Shown here piece after piece: positions 1 to 22,658 of a DNA stretch of 37,086 nucleotides. Each line of letters starts with the position of its first letter. Position 1 is the first letter of the stretch. The position numbers and the translations under genes are program-made. The DNA lies in assembly GCA_022843745.1 (NCBI GenBank), contig JALHNB010000063.1, positions 1 to 37,086 of the forward strand, in the 5' to 3' direction. The stretch is from Anaerolineae bacterium (GTDB lineage: Bacteria; Chloroflexota; Anaerolineae; Aggregatilineales; Phototrophicaceae). The notes below the pieces were generated by a model. The model was not told the origin of the DNA, searched no databases, and saw only the letters and a program-made list of their open reading frames with translations.

Positions 1-101
1 CATTCACAATGGCGATGTTCAACCTCTTGGTTCAATGGCATGGGCTTGTCCCTGATGAGAATGGTTTCGTTCAGCTCTCGCTTGCTGACTTTAGTTTATG
101 A
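1..101 (+). CDS. 3' end of an unidentified gene (partial)
   Basis: Reading in the frame that starts at base 3, the sequence is open from the window edge to a TGA at 99-101. It gives about 32 residues (FTMAMFNLLVQWHG..., ending LADFSL). The peptide has ordinary protein composition and ends 14 bases before the convergent stop of the minus-strand flippase, which fits a genuine gene end. Another frame is also open over this stretch, so the choice rests on composition and on the tail-to-tail layout. Too little is visible to name a family. By position it probably belongs to the neighbouring glycan locus. Confidence 0.4.
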   Translation, partial: FTMAMFNLLVQWHGLVPDENGFVQLSLADFSL

Positions 102-115
102 ACTAGCACCATTGG

Positions 116-1417
116 TTATGTAATTTCGTGGATTTTCATTGACATAATCTGTCGATTAGCATAAACCAAAATGAGTAAAGCAAAGACAAACTGTACGCCA
201 TAGGTCAGAATCATTGCCCAGGCTGCGCCCTTAATTCCATATTGAGGAATAAGTAGTTGGCAGAGAACAATATTGATTATGATACTCACTCCAAACATAA
301 TCGGCTGTATTTTGAAGTAGCGTATAGAAACGGTTCCATAACTGATAAATGATGTGAGGTATGAAACTGCTCCCGCGATTGTGATCCACAAAGCATCAGT
401 GGCGTACTGACTATATTCTGGTTTATAAAGAATAGTCAGTATTGGCTGACCAGCAATCGCCACCACGCCTGCGCCTATAATGCCGAGCGCTAATCCTATC
501 CCAATTAGTTTAATCATTAACCGACGAAAGGCATGTAAATTATGCGTTGCAAAATGCTGTGCTAGTCGAGGTGATGCCGATTGTCCAAGCGCTGAAACAA
601 CAATACTTCCAGCTTGGGTTAAATAGGCAATAGCTGCAAATATGCCTAGTGTTTTCTCCCCCCAGTAACGTTCAACTGCATACCGAGGGATGTTAAAATT
701 TAATGACATCATCATCGTCGCAAGACCGAGGGGTAAAGACAACCAGGCCAATTTCTGAAGTGTTTTCCAGTGAAAACGCGGGCGTGGTGCAACACCAGGA
801 AACTGCTCACGGAAGATTAAATGCACACTCTGAAAATCATAAAAAACAAGTTGTAACCCCCAGACAACAGCCATGCCAACAGTTGCCCAGACAAGGCTAT
901 GAGACACATATAGAATGGCGACCATAACGATTAAGGTAATTGGCCCTTCAATAATCAGTGATTTGGCGATCCGATCCATTCGTTCACGTTGCTGGAGCAG
1001 TCCAAAAGTAATATCACTCACAGCTTCAAATGATTTTGCCAAGCCTATGAGTAAAATGACGAGTGCAGTATCCTGACGATAGCCGGAAGCAACTACAATG
1101 ACAACGATACTGAGGTAAGCGATGAGTGTTGCGCATAAACGCAAGCCCAAATAATCACCAAAGGAATATTCCTGCTGAGTGTCTGTCGTCTGTATTGAAC
1201 GTAGCTGACAATTTGCAAATAAAATAATTGGGGCGGTTACTGCCAACCCTAACGCGAATTGCCCGACAATTTCAGGCGAACCTAGTTTGGCGAGTGCTAC
1301 TAAAATACCGCCCTGTGATGCCGCATAAATCATATTGCCAACAAAAGACCACGAAAAATTTTGCTTCAGGGAAAGACGCTTGACTTTGCTTTCTCTTTTT
1401 GAGGGCGACGCAATCAT
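116..1417 (-). CDS. polysaccharide flippase (Wzx/MATE-like membrane protein)
   Basis: This 433-residue integral membrane protein has about 12 hydrophobic segments spread over its whole length. A short basic N-terminus leads into LKQNFSWSFVGNMIYAASQG, the typical opening of the O-antigen/teichoic-acid flippase family (polysaccharide biosynthesis protein; MOP superfamily). Family members move undecaprenyl-linked oligosaccharides across the cytoplasmic membrane. The ATG at 1417 is used; no clear strong ribosome site is seen. It diverges from the sugar-phosphotransferase gene at 1616 across a 198 bp gap, so the pair may share a control region. Length is normal for the family. The substrate cannot be read from sequence, but the neighbouring initiating transferase points to a lipid-linked glycan. 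A second flippase lies at 17278-18588. Confidence 0.85.
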   Translation of the reverse strand: MIASPSKRESKVKRLSLKQNFSWSFVGNMIYAASQGGILVALAKLGSPEIVGQFALGLAVTAPIILFANCQLRSIQTTDTQQEYSFGDYLGLRLCATLIAYLSIVVIVVASGYRQDTALVILLIGLAKSFEAVSDITFGLLQQRERMDRIAKSLIIEGPITLIVMVAILYVSHSLVWATVGMAVVWGLQLVFYDFQSVHLIFREQFPGVAPRPRFHWKTLQKLAWLSLPLGLATMMMSLNFNIPRYAVERYWGEKTLGIFAAIAYLTQAGSIVVSALGQSASPRLAQHFATHNLHAFRRLMIKLIGIGLALGIIGAGVVAIAGQPILTILYKPEYSQYATDALWITIAGAVSYLTSFISYGTVSIRYFKIQPIMFGVSIIINIVLCQLLIPQYGIKGAAWAMILTYGVQFVFALLILVYANRQIMSMKIHEIT

Positions 1418-17277: not shown

Positions 17278-18588
17278 ATGAAAGCTCAACTCACATCGCT
17301 CCCCTTGCTTCTAAAAAGCAAAATCGGATCAAACTGGGTGCTGTACGTCAATGCCAGTTCGCTGGTCGCGACAACGGCGGTCACATCCGGGCTGGGCTTT
17401 ATTTATTGGTGGGTAGCCGCCCGTTTATTCCCCCAGCAGTCGGTTGGTTTTGCATCGGCAGCGGTTTCCGCCATGATGCTCCTCGGCGCTTTAGGAATGC
17501 TCGGCCTGGGGACGTTGATTATCACCGAAGTGGGGCGTGAGCGTCATAAGGTGGGTTCAATTGCGATAACCGCGATTTTACTGGTTGGCGGTGTATCAAC
17601 CTTACTCGGTATTCTGTTCGCGCTTGCCGCACCGAACCTGACTTCCGAGCTTGCACCTCTATCAGCCAGCATTGGCAATATCATTATTTTTGCCCTGGGT
17701 GTCGCCTTCACCTCGATCACGCTCATTGTCGATCAGGTGATGATTGCGCTGCTGCGCGGCGGGCTTCAGCTTTGGCGCAATATCCTGTTTGCTGTCGCGA
17801 AACTTGCGCTCCTGTATGGAATCGCGGTTCTGGTATCCGAAAAAGTGGGCATGAATATCTATCTTGCCTGGATGCTGGGGAATGCGCTCTCGCTCGTTGC
17901 GTTGGCCGTTTTTCTCATCAGCAAGCGGACACGCATTCTCTATCGCCCTCAGTTTGGCTTCATCAGGAATTTGGGACGTGCCGCCTTAGCACATCATGCG
18001 ACCAATCTGATCCTGCAAGCGCCGAGTCTGATTATGCCGATTGCGGTAACGACACTGCTTTCCGCTGCGGCGAACGCCAGCTTTTATTCAGCGTGGATGA
18101 TCGCAAGTTTTCTATTCGTTCTGCCTGCCCATTTGACGACGGTACTTCATGCCGTTGGCGCACAGTCTCCGGCTATCGTCATTTCCAAAATGCGCTCGAC
18201 GATGAAGTTAGCTTTTTTCATTGCGCTGCCCGCAAGCTGCGCCCTGTTTATCGGGGCGGGGTTGCTGCTCAGTATATTTGGTAAACAATATGTCGATGAG
18301 GCCGCCTGGAGTCTTCGCATTCTCGGCCTCGGTGTTTTCCCGCTGATTATCAAATATCATTACATCGCGGTTTTAAGAATTTATGATCGGGTTCAAAGCG
18401 CTATTTTATTCCTGCTTTTCGTCAGCATCATGGAAATCAGCTTTTCAATAGTCGGATTAGAGCTTGGTGCGCTCACGGGTTTGAGTATCGGTTGGGTTTT
18501 GGCGTTGTGTCTGGAAGCATCCCTGATGTATTTCAAGATGCGGCAAACAATCTATAGCCAGCGGGCTGCTGCTGAAGTGAGTGTATAA
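17278..18588 (+). CDS. second polysaccharide flippase-like membrane protein
   Basis: This 436-residue protein has 12-14 hydrophobic segments across its length, beginning VNASSLVATTAVTSGLGFIY. It belongs to the broad MOP flippase superfamily (polysaccharide export/Wzx-like) and is not closely similar by eye to the flippase at 116-1417. The start is unclear: ATG 17278 is used, but a TTG at 17269 lies 11 bases after AAGGA and could be the true start. It ends the glycosyltransferase block, as flippases often do. Two flippases in one locus suggest either two glycans or transport of different intermediates. Confidence 0.8.
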   Translation: MKAQLTSLPLLLKSKIGSNWVLYVNASSLVATTAVTSGLGFIYWWVAARLFPQQSVGFASAAVSAMMLLGALGMLGLGTLIITEVGRERHKVGSIAITAILLVGGVSTLLGILFALAAPNLTSELAPLSASIGNIIIFALGVAFTSITLIVDQVMIALLRGGLQLWRNILFAVAKLALLYGIAVLVSEKVGMNIYLAWMLGNALSLVALAVFLISKRTRILYRPQFGFIRNLGRAALAHHATNLILQAPSLIMPIAVTTLLSAAANASFYSAWMIASFLFVLPAHLTTVLHAVGAQSPAIVISKMRSTMKLAFFIALPASCALFIGAGLLLSIFGKQYVDEAAWSLRILGLGVFPLIIKYHYIAVLRIYDRVQSAILFLLFVSIMEISFSIVGLELGALTGLSIGWVLALCLEASLMYFKMRQTIYSQRAAAEVSV

Positions 18589-18634
18589 ACTGCGAGGGTG
18601 TAAAAACCAAAATGCTGGGTGAAGCAACGCCTCG

Positions 18635-18661
18635 CCCCTACAAACACCGGTATCGTAGGGG
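18635..18661. repeat. degenerate GTAGGGG/CCCCTAC palindromic repeat
   Basis: CCCCTAC (18635-18641) and GTAGGGG (18655-18661) form an inverted pair around a 13-base loop, in the outward orientation opposite to the intact copies. It looks like the junction of two decayed members of the palindrome family at 22666, 24179, 26981 and 32108. It lies 47 bases after the flippase stop and could act as a transcript-end hairpin. Confidence 0.5.
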
Positions 18662-18818
18662 TGCATAGCCGCGTGACCAATCAACAAAACCTTCTTCATG
18701 GACTTCTGGCACCGAGCGCGAATTTTCCCATTTCCCATGTTCGCAACTATCTTGGCAGGATAGAGAGGTTGACTTCGAAAATGACGAATTCATTATTGAG
18801 CTAAAACTGAACGTATCC

Positions 18819-18846
18819 TTGACGAGCCTCAAAAAGATTGTAGAAT
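18819..18846 (+). promoter_or_regulatory. strong sigma70-like promoter for the structured RNA
   Basis: TTGACG (18819-18824) and TAGAAT (18841-18846) are separated by 16 bases, each matching the sigma70 consensus at five of six positions. Transcription would start near 18853. No protein gene begins within the next 280 bases, so the transcript starts in a noncoding, hairpin-rich stretch. Confidence 0.6.
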
Positions 18847-18852
18847 TCCACC

Positions 18853-19040
18853 CTATGCATAAAAACACATTTGTAATTCCCATGCCAATCCATCCAACTC
18901 ACGCTGTCAAAAGTGTGTGTTGTGCTTCCACATCATATTCATGTGGAGGGATGCCTGTCTCGCTTATCTCTGGTTCATAACTCTCGTGAGTTTTAACCAG
19001 TTCCAGTTGTTGCCACCCCTTCACGGGGGTTTTTGTTTTC
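18853..19040 (+). ncRNA. candidate structured RNA or leader, ~185 nt, unidentified
   Basis: Downstream of the promoter at 18819 lie four stems in a row. H1 pairs 18895-18904 with 18913-18922 (nine pairs, one U-U mismatch, 8-base loop). H2 pairs 18925-18933 with 18941-18949 (nine pairs, 7-base loop). CATC 18891-18894 and GATG 18950-18953 can close H1 and H2 into a three-way junction. H3 pairs CTGGTT 18970 with AACCAG 18995, enclosing AACTC/GAGTT with a TCGT loop. H4 is a GC stem followed by a T-run. It does not match 6S, tmRNA, RNase P, SRP, T-box or another class I can recognise. It may be a free small RNA or a riboswitch-like attenuator of the ABC transporter operon at 19133. Confidence 0.5.
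19015..19039 (+). terminator. intrinsic terminator
   Basis: ACCCC (19015-19019) pairs with GGGGT (19026-19030) around a 6-base loop and is followed by TTTTTGTTTT. The stem is short but GC-pure. It ends the candidate RNA 94 bases before the permease start codon. Confidence 0.6.
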
Positions 19041-19132
19041 TATGCCGGGATTCATGTGCGCAAGAAAAATACATTAAACTCTTGCTGAACTTGTAGACCT
19101 GTACTTTATAACAAGGATAACGATTTCACTTT

Positions 19133-20107
19133 ATGATTCGCTACATCATCCGCCGCTTGCTTCTGGCAGTGCCATTACTCCTGGTGATTTCCGCGCTGAC
19201 TTTTGTCATCGTCGAGATCGCGCCCGGTGACGCTGCACAGATGTATATTGACCCGGAGAAGGGGACTGACCCGGCCTATATCGAGCAGATACGCCGCAAC
19301 CTCGGCCTCGATCAGCCGATTCACGTGCGTTACGTGGCGTGGCTTGGTCAAACACTGTCGGGTGATTGGGGCTTTTCGTTCCGCAGTCGGCGCGCGGTCA
19401 CGCTGGAAGTGGGGGATCGTTTGCCTAATACGCTGCTGCTGGGTGGAACAGCACTGCTGTTATCGTTTGTGCTGGCAGTGCCGATTGGTGTGATTTCGGC
19501 GTTCAAGCGCTATTCATGGATTGACTACACTGTAACCACTTTATCGCTTGTGGGAACTTCGATACCGATTTTTTGGGTCGCACTGCTGTTTATTCAGGTG
19601 TTTGCTATCCAGATGGATTGGTTTCCGGCTTCAGGGATGCGCTCCGTGCGTGAGCAATATACGGGCTGGCAGTCGGTAATCGACGTGCTGCATCACATGA
19701 TTTTGCCGACGATTGTCCTGGCGCTGGCTCAGATCGCCGGTTGGTCGCGCTATCAACGGTCTGCGCTGCTGGATGTGCTGGGGCAGGATTATATTCGCAC
19801 GGCACGGGGCAAAGGCGTGCGCGAACGCCGCGTCCTGATTTTGCACGCGCTGCGTAACGCGCTGATCCCTATGATTACGCTGGTGGGGATTTCCGTGCCG
19901 AGTGTCGTCACGGGCGCGTTCATCACAGAGACGATTTTTAGCTGGCCGGGTATTGGGCGGTTGGGTGTGGATGCGGTCAGTGGACGCGATTACCCGGTCA
20001 TTATGGCTGTGACGATGCTGTCGGCGGTACTCATTATTCTCAGCAGTTTATTGGCTGATATTGCCTACGCCTGGGCGGATCCGAGAATTCGTTATGAGCA
20101 GTCGTAG
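19133..20107 (+). CDS. ABC transporter permease, DppB/OppB-like
   Basis: This 324-residue inner-membrane permease of the peptide/nickel ABC importer family starts MIRYIIRRLLLAVPLLLVIS. It carries AFIVE/IAPGDAA-type first-loop features (FVIVEIAPGDAAQMYID) and six membrane segments. The cytoplasmic EAA loop reads YIRTARGKGVRERRVLILHAL, followed by RNALIPMITLVG. It forms the channel with the next gene product. AAGGA lies 15 bases upstream of ATG 19133; a TTGCTG/TATAAC pair at 19082 and 19107 with a 19-base spacer could be a weak extra promoter. The candidate leader RNA ends just upstream. It overlaps the next gene by 14 bases. Confidence 0.9.
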   Translation: MIRYIIRRLLLAVPLLLVISALTFVIVEIAPGDAAQMYIDPEKGTDPAYIEQIRRNLGLDQPIHVRYVAWLGQTLSGDWGFSFRSRRAVTLEVGDRLPNTLLLGGTALLLSFVLAVPIGVISAFKRYSWIDYTVTTLSLVGTSIPIFWVALLFIQVFAIQMDWFPASGMRSVREQYTGWQSVIDVLHHMILPTIVLALAQIAGWSRYQRSALLDVLGQDYIRTARGKGVRERRVLILHALRNALIPMITLVGISVPSVVTGAFITETIFSWPGIGRLGVDAVSGRDYPVIMAVTMLSAVLIILSSLLADIAYAWADPRIRYEQS

Positions 20108-20987
20108 TTCAACCCTGCCGCTTTCGCTGGTCTCCGACCAACACCGCAACGAGGTACGCGGTTGGCAATTATTCCGTCGGCATCGTTTGGCGCTTGCCAG
20201 TGGTCTGCTGCTTTTGATGTTCATCGGCATCGCGGTCTTTGCGGATCAGGTTACGCCCTACGACCCGAATGCTACGAACACCGATTATGCCAGAGGCAAG
20301 CCGCAAGCGCCGTCATTCGAATACGCGCTTGGCACGGATAATTATGGGCGCGATTATCTCTCACGCACGATCAGCGGGGTGCGTGTATCGCTGTTTGTGG
20401 GCATCAGCGCCGTGATTTTCCAACTGCTCATCGGCGTGACAATCGGCGCACTGGCGGGCTATTTTGGCGGCTGGCTCGATAACCTCTTAATGAGAATAAC
20501 CGACATTTTTCTGGCAATTCCGGCGTTTATGCTCCTGCTCATTCTGGCGGGGATTCTCGGTGGCACGCTGCTGGCGTTGATTTTTGCCATCGGTGCGCTG
20601 AACTGGATGACGGTTGCCCGTCTCGTGCGCGGTCAATTCTTATCGCTGCGTGAACGCGAATTTGTGATGGCGGGGCAGTGCATCGGCGCGTCCCACTGGC
20701 GTTTAATTGCTGTTTATATCCTGCCCAATACTATCTCTTCGATCATTGTGGCAGCTACCTTATCGATTCCCGGTGCGATTCTGACGGAATCGGCACTCAG
20801 TTTTTTGGGGTTGGGTGTGCCGCCGCCGAATGCCAGCCTGGGCAATATGCTCGGTGGCGCACAGCAGTGGATTCGCACGGCCTGGTGGATGTGGATTGTG
20901 CCGGGGGCGACGATTTCGCTGATCGTCCTGGCTTTTAATTTTGTTGGTGATGGCCTGCGGGATGCCCTTGACCCGCAGTTGCGATAA
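20094..20987 (+). CDS. ABC transporter permease, DppC/OppC-like
   Basis: This 297-residue second permease has the OppC N-terminal extension (GWQLFRRHRLALASGLLLLM, then FADQVTPYDPNA) and the GTDNYGRDYLSRTISGVRVSL block. The EAA loop is REREFVMAGQCIGASHWRLI. LSFLGLGVPPPNASLGNML and the C-terminal FNFVGDGLRDALDPQLR are diagnostic. ATG 20094 is chosen because it overlaps the previous stop by 14 bases; an upstream in-frame TTG at 20061 would add an unlikely N-terminus. It pairs with the product of 19133-20107. The two ATPase subunits are not in the window. Confidence 0.9.
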   Translation: MSSRSSTLPLSLVSDQHRNEVRGWQLFRRHRLALASGLLLLMFIGIAVFADQVTPYDPNATNTDYARGKPQAPSFEYALGTDNYGRDYLSRTISGVRVSLFVGISAVIFQLLIGVTIGALAGYFGGWLDNLLMRITDIFLAIPAFMLLLILAGILGGTLLALIFAIGALNWMTVARLVRGQFLSLREREFVMAGQCIGASHWRLIAVYILPNTISSIIVAATLSIPGAILTESALSFLGLGVPPPNASLGNMLGGAQQWIRTAWWMWIVPGATISLIVLAFNFVGDGLRDALDPQLR

Positions 20988-21077: not shown

Positions 21078-22658
21078 ATGCGAAAACTGAGCCTGATTCT
21101 GATCTTGTTCGTTATTTTGAGTGTCTCGGCTGTTTCTGCTCAGGAGAGCAGTACCCTGATCGTCCAGTCCAACGGCGATCCGCAAACCTTAAGCGGCCTG
21201 TATGCCAATGATGGCAACAGCCTCTCTGTCGTGACTTTTCTGGTAGAGCCGCTGGTTCTTGGTGGCGAAAACTGGGGCGATTCGATTGAACCCGCGCTGG
21301 CTGAAAGCTGGACGGTATCGGACGATGGGTTGGAATATACCTTCAATCTGCGCCAGGGCGTGAAGTGGCATGACGGCGTGGAATTTACCGCTGCCGATGT
21401 GCTGTTCACCTATCAGGTCGTCCTGCTCGAAGAGAATGCCATTGATTGGCGCTCGAATCTGCTACAAAACGGTGAACCATTCGGTTTTGAAGTAGTGGAC
21501 GACTATACATTTAAGGTCATCCTGACCCAGCCGGACGCGACTGTGCTGACCGCCCTGAGCATTCCGATTGTTCCTGCTCATGCTTTTGAAAGCACGAACG
21601 TGGTTGATGCGCCATTCAACACCAATCCTATCGGCACTGGGCCATATCGCTTTGTCGAGTGGAATACGGGTGAGAATATCGTCCTCGAAGCCAACGCCGA
21701 CTACTGGCGCGGCGCACCGAAGATTGGTCGCCTTGTCGTGAGCTTTATCGAAGGCGTTGAAAATTCGGCGAACGCGCTGCTGGCGGGTGAACTGGATTTC
21801 GCGCGGATTGATGGCGCAGACCTGACACCGTTCCAGGACAACCCCGATTTCACTATTGTCGAAGCCCCTCGCGACCTGATGCGCTATGTGGGTTTCAATG
21901 TCCAGAGTGAACTTTATAGCGATCCCGCTGTTCGTCAGGCACTGGCGGTTGGTCTGGATCGTAATGCGGTTATCGACGCTGTGGCTGGTGGATATGGAAT
22001 TTTGCCGGACTCGGTCTTTAATCGTTCCGTATTTGTCTATGAAGAAGGCCGTAATGCCCAGTATGCGTTTGACCCTGAAGCGGCGAAACAACAGTTAGCC
22101 GACCTCGGCTGGACGGACAGCGATGGCAACGGTTTCCTGGACAAGGATGGGCAGGAATTGACGCTCAATCTGGCTTACCTGGGAACATGGTCGCTGATGC
22201 AGAATATCTCGCCGATTGTCTATGACAACTGGCGTGCGCTGGGCGTGAATGTCACACTCGTGCCGCTGGACGATGCCGCTGCCAACACCGAAATTTACGA
22301 TAACCAGAATGTCGAAAAATCGTATGACGCTTTTCTGGGCGGCTGGGGATTGTTTGGGCCAGAGCCGGATCATTACCGGAATTATCTGGCAAGCGAAACA
22401 GGTTTCTTCGCCTATAACAACGCGGATGTGATCGCGCTGTTCGATGAAGGCCGTTCGACCTCAGATGCCGATGCCCGCTATGGCATTTATGAACAGGCCG
22501 ATGCGCTGCTGTGGCAAGACCTGCCTTTGATCCCGATTTTCCAGCCGATTGGTGTCTATGTCTTCCGTTCGGATTTGAACCTGGAAGAAGCGGAGATCAA
22601 CGGTACGTTCCTCACCGGGCTGAAATTCCCCGGTAATGCGTATTTCGTAGAGTCGTAA
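21078..22658 (+). CDS. ABC transporter substrate-binding protein, family 5 (DppA/OppA-like)
   Basis: This 526-residue extracellular solute-binding protein (SBP_bac_5) has a Sec signal peptide (KLSLILILFVILSVSAVSA, cut before QES). No lipobox cysteine is seen, which is unusual if the cell is a monoderm. Family signatures are LAESWTVSDDGLEYTFNLR, GVKWHDGVEFTAADVLFTY, and IGTGPYRFVEW, then a C-terminal lobe with KSYDAFLGGWGLFGPEPDHY. GGAGG precedes ATG 21078 by 8 bases. It delivers peptide-like or other small solutes to the two permeases upstream. The ligand cannot be told from sequence. The gene order B-C-A is typical, but the missing ATPase genes mean they lie elsewhere or are shared. Confidence 0.9.
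   Translation: MRKLSLILILFVILSVSAVSAQESSTLIVQSNGDPQTLSGLYANDGNSLSVVTFLVEPLVLGGENWGDSIEPALAESWTVSDDGLEYTFNLRQGVKWHDGVEFTAADVLFTYQVVLLEENAIDWRSNLLQNGEPFGFEVVDDYTFKVILTQPDATVLTALSIPIVPAHAFESTNVVDAPFNTNPIGTGPYRFVEWNTGENIVLEANADYWRGAPKIGRLVVSFIEGVENSANALLAGELDFARIDGADLTPFQDNPDFTIVEAPRDLMRYVGFNVQSELYSDPAVRQALAVGLDRNAVIDAVAGGYGILPDSVFNRSVFVYEEGRNAQYAFDPEAAKQQLADLGWTDSDGNGFLDKDGQELTLNLAYLGTWSLMQNISPIVYDNWRALGVNVTLVPLDDAAANTEIYDNQNVEKSYDAFLGGWGLFGPEPDHYRNYLASETGFFAYNNADVIALFDEGRSTSDADARYGIYEQADALLWQDLPLIPIFQPIGVYVFRSDLNLEEAEINGTFLTGLKFPGNAYFVES

Follow-up and report, generated by a model that had tools for sequence, protein, structure and literature searches.

The window, by which we mean the whole 37,086-nucleotide stretch of Chloroflexota DNA analysed here, carries a segment (18819–19040) ahead of a dppB-type permease gene that begins with a promoter-like site and ends in a terminator-like hairpin. 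What this segment does for the importer genes behind it is the question raised by the locus. The preliminary description took it for a new structured RNA or riboswitch. Our analysis points away from that reading: the segment looks like a translated leader frame, and what the related locus L062 keeps of it is the promoter, a UGU-UGU codon pair, a strand X complementary to the terminator, the arms of hairpin H3 and the terminator itself. We predict that 18819–19040 probably serves the dppBC–solute-binding-protein operon as a ribosome-mediated transcription attenuator that responds to cysteine. The features of the locus are as follows.

18819–18846, plus strand: sigma-70-type promoter TTGACG-16-TAGAAT, from a promoter scan; L062 has the same hexamers and 16-nt spacing
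18855–18980, plus strand: leader frame of 41 codons with an ATG start; counterparts in L062, L063, L146 and L064
18896–18921, plus strand: H1, a hairpin within the leader frame, from the fold; the L062 alignment shows no counterpart
18918–18923, plus strand: UGU-UGU (Cys22, Cys23), the predicted stall site; UGU-UGU at the matching place in L062
18925–18949, plus strand: hairpin 1:2 (CTTCCACAT / ATGTGGAGG), immediately 3' of UGU-UGU, with a 3' arm that can alternatively pair with the terminator; from the fold and the L062 consensus
18936–18953, plus strand: predicted antiterminator X (TATTCATGTGGAGGGA, with core GTGGAGGGATG), a strand complementary to the terminator, from duplex energy and L062
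18970–19000, plus strand: hairpin H3, which overlaps the stop codon of the leader (18978–18980), from the fold and the L062 consensus
19013–19039, plus strand: intrinsic terminator and T-run, from scan and fold; kept in L062
19133–20107, plus strand: dppB-type permease, which opens the predicted regulated operon
20061–20987, plus strand: dppC-type permease, given as the longest frame; the true start may be further in
21078–22658, plus strand: family-5 solute-binding protein; best PDB sequence match Lmo0135 (CtaP)

Promoter, fold and terminator

The two ends of the segment are as first described. The TTGACG-16-TAGAAT promoter is present with 10/12 matches and ranks first among five promoter-like sites in 18000–20000; taken alone, the site is weak because shuffled sequences average 2.3 such sites. 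The GC stem with its T-run is a terminator-like ACCCCTTCACGGGGGT at 19015–19030, followed by a T-run up to 19039, and it is a weak terminator in the terminator scan (−8.8 kcal/mol). Between these ends, the RNA from 18853 to 19040 folds at −49.6 kcal/mol (z = −3.2), with an equally stable fold in 1 of 200 shuffles. H1, H2 and H3 had been drawn as part of a possible three-way junction. All three positions are hairpins in the minimum-energy fold, H2 having seven pairs there and nine in the centroid. The minimum-energy fold of 18853–19040 lacks the CATC/GATG closing, and the junction has no visible counterpart in L062. H3 is predicted to form the tip of an antiterminator rod.

That the preliminary description could not match the segment to a known RNA class agrees with the Rfam covariance models, which returned nothing at either threshold: no gathering-level family in the whole window and no match up to E = 5 in 18560–19200. 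None of the riboswitch, T-box or other RNA models in Rfam was matched in the window. A DNA search of 100 related genomes and the genome of the window itself found no convincing homologue of the segment outside its own genome, the best outside match (E = 0.003) covering 25 bases at the terminator and the others being short and weaker; at E 0.001, the own genome holds no second copy. For this reason, the comparison was built on the upstream regions of dppB orthologues. GTAGGGG-type palindromic short repeats were seen by eye in intergenic DNA at ~18619–18665 of the window and at ~1135–1175 of locus L171, and are possibly a dispersed element.

Leader frames at orthologous dppB loci

A reading frame does use this stretch, contrary to the preliminary description. 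The 41-codon frame at 18855–18980 spans H1, H2 and the start of H3 and encodes MHKNTFVIPMPIHPTHAVKSVCCASTSYSCGGMPVSLISGS. Its ATG lies 8 nt past the −10 box, a predicted leaderless-type start, and it contains three Cys codons, the adjacent UGU-UGU pair and a third at 18942–18944. A frame with two adjacent Cys codons and one further Cys codon falls within the chance background, as a weak Cys-pair frame lies upstream of 67/645 terminators (10.4%) in 1.2 Mb of the own genome. The five dppB leaders described below show no Cys excess in frame, with 19/178 codons versus 16/173 in the +1 frame (p = 0.72). Because of this background and the missing excess over the +1 frame, the window alone is insufficient for the claim. 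A scan of 1.2 Mb (15%) of the own genome for further Cys leaders found none that was convincing.

Nineteen loci were compared with the window; several are one sequence held in two collections, which leaves 13 distinct upstream regions including the window (L033, outside the 19-locus comparison, is L062 again by coordinates and frames). At all five loci with at least 75% dppB identity, namely the window, L062 (89%), L063 (80%), L146 (79%) and L064 (75%), a promoter, a Cys-containing short frame and a terminator precede dppB, with 35–109 nt between the end of the T-run and the gene; promoters outside the window were chosen by eye. The leader peptides of L062, L063 and L146 are MNAFRMLITHPNQSCCPVTTCRCEGISCRLPLVCSVR, MTTLRCKIMLPNMCCMCRTTHIEFCAGGCNG and MKLAVMRPMQCLNACRMCPTHTTVMFARMAKASPTE, respectively. 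The L064 leader is MQTWRNFIKMLVSGNTLKSCGWKFYQTT, with one Cys, and is read only from the second AUG; the frame of the first AUG has no Cys. A clustered Cys pair (two Cys within four codons) occurs in 4/5 dppB leaders versus the 10.4% background (P = 5e-4). The start lies 7 nt past the −10 box in L062 and, for the AUG used in L064, 12 nt past TATACT, a box chosen by eye. In L063 and L146, the AUG is 49 and 42 nt past TATTCT (also by eye), which corresponds to a 5' UTR of ~35–42 nt. Counting the codons after the start, both Cys (19/168, p = 3.2e-6) and Met (12/168, p = 2.5e-5) are enriched in the dppB leaders; since Met is enriched alongside Cys, a sulfur-amino-acid signal is possible.

Among the dppB loci with 68–73% identity (eight distinct; L036 left out), such a leader directly before dppB was found in 0/7. 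An OsmC-like gene lies directly upstream of dppB in L065, L066, L068, L069, L150 and L152, these genes being recognised by eye with Pfam run on L066 only; L067 has neither a Cys leader nor an OsmC-like gene upstream of dppB. Viral contigs yielded no dppB relative.

The comparison of the window with L062 separates conserved from variable parts of the leader. BLASTN finds one 47-bp match between the two. Blocks kept in both are the promoter, TGTTGT, TGTGRAGGGAT (X), CTCTGGT plus AACCAGTTCCRGTTG (H3 and flank) and the terminator, of which CCCCTTC..GGGG and TTTTTGTTT are kept. In the window–L062 consensus fold, 4/20 pairs are changed on both sides. Two of these lie in hairpin 1:2, where they make up 2/6 pairs; the outer arms of H3 are kept, and one of its inner pairs is changed on both sides. 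Beside hairpin 1:2, the consensus holds only four X-to-terminator pairs, all invariant. Judged from sequence, the conserved blocks are the parts that the attenuation mechanism would need.

Cysteine leaders before cysK-cysE and a second importer

When 188 loci (1.32 Mb) were scanned for a paired-Cys short frame followed by a terminator and then a gene, the dppB leaders came up together with two strong new cases and a few weak matches. In L171, the leader MKMYAAYPTCCCPCCDIITESSCGVIRRR precedes a cysteine synthase whose score of 477 bits compares with a cysK cut-off of 351. In L024, the leader MFNQHPMCACCCCATDLWSKGLMICCQVLNT precedes a Peripla_BP_4 binding protein.

Orthologues of this cysK at E 1e-95 or better are present in 39/154 genomes of the order, and 30 loci were fetched. 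A Cys-cluster frame was chosen in 25/30 and is joined by a terminator in 24/30, or 23/30 under a stricter rule that the L212 terminator fails; L192, with a Cys frame but no scripted terminator, stands outside the 24. This frequency exceeds what the 10.4% background gives. The cysK leaders, like those of the Peripla_BP_4 importer, are denser in Cys than the dppB leaders. Five rows were left out of the leader set (L193, L200, L203, L205 and L217), the last of which has a terminator, yet a Cys frame judged unlike the other cysK leaders. The 24 frames hold Cys at 94/641 codons versus 49/617 and 17/617 in the other two frames, figures that describe the frames and are no clean or independent test, since Cys clusters had guided the choice. 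The sequence of the cysK leaders varies widely: residues near the Cys codons differ between genera, and Cys density is kept. X in these leaders mostly coincides with the end of the frame, and it reaches the terminator loop and 3' arm. A cysE-like gene follows cysK in all six loci viewed by eye (L171, recognised by its first codons, and L189, L194, L198, L208 and L215), and 4/4 cysE-like genes tested score over the TIGR01172 cut-off. In L194, the start of a cysteine-desulfurase-like gene (3–515, minus strand; best match NifS, 203 bits) comes after cysE in a frame cut by the end of the locus.

The Peripla_BP_4 importer has orthologues in 3/101 genomes, with a Cys leader and a terminator at 3/3 loci; the leaders (L024 and L218–L220) contain CACCCC or CMCCC. 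This association suggests that the importer may have a so far unrecognised part in supplying sulfur or cysteine. Frames with CxC[PT]xRG occur in a second order of the class, at 7/15 cysK loci of at least 71% identity (L241, L243, L245, L247, L252, L253 and L256, with a variant in L248; an example is AVCCICPGRGHGAASGG), and 6/7 have a terminator-like site before cysK. Conservation beyond the Cys residues in CxC[PT]xRG may reflect a somewhat different mode of sensing.

Four of the five genomes with a dppB leader (G000, G008, G476 and G478) lack a match at E 1e-95 to the cysK that carries a leader, and G479 has both; import may replace cysteine synthesis in these four. The own genome gave 14 PALP matches, and four matched stretches were put through NCBIfam. 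Three resemble threonine dehydratase; the fourth is most like cystathionine beta-synthase and scores only slightly lower against cysteine synthase. None of the four reaches a curated cut-off, and they were dropped as candidates for cysteine synthase.

Antiterminator pairing and the predicted switch

If these leaders are attenuators, X should pair with its own terminator. The X-to-terminator duplex of the window has an energy of −16.5 kcal/mol (p = 0.030, 300 shuffles of X), and the other dppB leaders give p = 0.070 (L062), 0.007 (L063), 0.003 (L146) and 0.007 (L064). Over 32 leaders, cognate pairing beats shuffles with a Fisher value of 1.7e-10, taking one leader from each of 18 groups; the groups are our own, and window/L062 and L063/L146 are counted separately though related. 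The terminators of other groups pair as well with X in 19% of cases (mean over 18) versus 50% expected by chance. For the dppB leaders, the share of non-cognate terminators that pair as well is 45% in the window, 55% in L062, 13% in L063, 6% in L146 and 0% in L064. As 45% of other terminators match the X of the window equally, this control gives the window itself no support.

The complementarity can be followed between related leaders. In L206 (CTCTTGTGGGGTG/CACTCCACAAGAG) and L208 (CGCTTGTG/CACAAGCG), the strand at the end of the frame complements the terminator 5' arm, the loop and the start of the 3' arm, and a T-A pair in L206 is G-C in L208. A second compensating change distinguishes ACCCAT/ATGGGT in L194 from ACCCG/CGGGT in L197; L195 and L196 carry G-U intermediates. 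The terminator loop and the U-run of X co-vary in length between L063 and L146, GCAAAAC occurring with GUUUUGC and GCAAAC with GUUUGC.

We also computed how the position of the ribosome would shift the balance. A first measure used the terminator 5' arm and loop only and placed the 3' edge of the ribosome 12 nt downstream of the A-site codon's first base. The antiterminator gain in the window is ~1 kcal/mol near the frame start, 5.1 at Cys22/Cys23 and 0.1 at the stop; in L062, it is 1.5 near the start, 8.4/7.8 at the Cys pair and 3.3 at the stop. A ribosome at the Cys codons, and not at the stop, is predicted to favour the antiterminator in the window, L062, L063 and L146, and in L064 the stop-codon state still favours it (6.6 versus 9.4). 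Against shuffles, 49/500 do as well as the window, and the measure is suggestive for the dppB set. It is lower at the stop in 22/28 other leaders and gives no signal on 28 other leaders, L217 included (Fisher 0.73). The replacement measure, which was chosen after the sequences had been read, sets X against the arm, the loop and the start of the 3' arm.

The proposed mechanism starts from computed features: the frame with its Cys codons, the complementarity of X to the terminator, the return of this layout at orthologous loci and leaders of the same type before cysK-cysE in the order. Transcription would start near 18853, and a ribosome would initiate on the AUG that lies at the 5' end or right beside it. 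With ample Cys-tRNA, it would reach the stop codon (18978–18980) and block pairing of X (18936–18953), whereupon the terminator (19013–19029) would fold and RNA polymerase would stop. With Cys-tRNA in short supply, the ribosome would stall at UGU-UGU (18918–18923) and cover arm 1 of hairpin 1:2; X would be freed to pair with the terminator 5' arm and loop, and transcription would enter dppB. Translation of the frame, stalling, termination, readthrough and cysteine as the signal are parts of a model, in which the importer may supply cysteine, for example as peptides. The suggestion that the segment is a transcription-attenuation leader for the downstream transporter is supported by the same layout at 5/5 dppB loci and by antiterminator pairing above shuffles. 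We favour attenuation because the leader recurs at one locus in five genomes, because cysK carries such leaders and because of the pairing statistics over all leaders.

Of the other readings, one keeps the leader and changes its signal: it may sense thiols or sulfur amino acids in another way, through a joint shortage of Met and Cys, metal or redox stress, or nascent-peptide arrest. Met enrichment like that of Cys, the OsmC-like gene adjoining dppB in several relatives and the CxC[PT]xRG shared beyond Cys by the second-order leaders would fit this idea. We nevertheless regard it as unlikely, given the association of Cys leaders with cysK and cysE, the persistence of Cys density in cysK leaders while surrounding residues vary by genus, and an X-to-terminator pairing that fits ordinary attenuation. 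If the frame were accidental, a metabolite-binding riboswitch or another structured RNA would account for the stable fold (z = −3.2), the promoter-like site and the terminator. This explanation is quite improbable in view of the empty Rfam search of 18560–19200 up to E = 5, the single 47-bp BLASTN match to L062 with no visible junction, and the Cys frames at 5/5 dppB loci and in sequence-diverse cysK leaders. Least probable is that the segment yields an independent small RNA of ~185 nt with its 3' end at 19039 and that dppB has a promoter of its own. Promoter and terminator do bracket the segment, but the only promoter-like site that the promoter scan gave between the terminator and dppB (19108–19137) overlaps the start codon of dppB, the unit stands immediately before dppB at 5/5 loci with its T-run ending 35–109 nt away, and the own genome has no other copy at E 0.001.

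Attenuators of the trp, his and leu type have a leader peptide with regulatory codons, alternative hairpins and an intrinsic terminator before the first gene. The leaders described here are like them in all these respects and differ in the regulatory residue, which is cysteine, in their Chloroflexota host and in the reach of the cysK-leader X to the terminator loop and 3' arm. Examples of the trp type appear in PMC1262725, which also notes that candidate actinobacterial Cys leader peptides have no obvious terminators. The polycysteine leaderless short ORFs of Mycobacterium (Canestrari et al. 2020), as described in PMC9031893 and PMC13236596, regulate at the level of translation. The present leaders share with the mycobacterial attenuators adjacent Cys codons, a short frame at or near the transcript 5' end, cysteine-tied genes downstream and, in the window and L062, a predicted leaderless-type start. 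Unlike the mycobacterial and actinobacterial Cys leaders as described in those papers, they have an intrinsic terminator (5/5 dppB loci) and a complementary antiterminator strand after the frame. Among the literature matches listed, titles and abstract openings describe no cysteine attenuator of Chloroflexota. Ribosome-mediated attenuation is a known kind of control, and cysteine leaders are known from mycobacteria.

The importer itself resembles the CtaP (Lmo0135) cysteine-transport system of Listeria in having a binding protein and two permeases. Among PDB sequences, Lmo0135/CtaP matches the solute-binding protein best (193 bits), but the match does not settle the substrate because AppA scores nearly equally (186 bits). 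According to PMC10269559, the permeases of CtaP are needed for growth at low cysteine.

On balance, it is likely that the order of the window and at least one further order of the class have a cysteine regulon controlled by Cys-leader attenuation with intrinsic terminators, covering cysK-cysE, the Peripla_BP_4 importer and the peptide importer. If so, this regulon would be the cysteine counterpart of the trp attenuator in Chloroflexota, and cysteine leader-peptide attenuation with intrinsic terminators would extend to another phylum. What had been a structured RNA becomes a testable switch, and the importer gains a likely role in cysteine supply. Cys-run leaders would then be usable as markers of cysteine-related genes in uncultured members.
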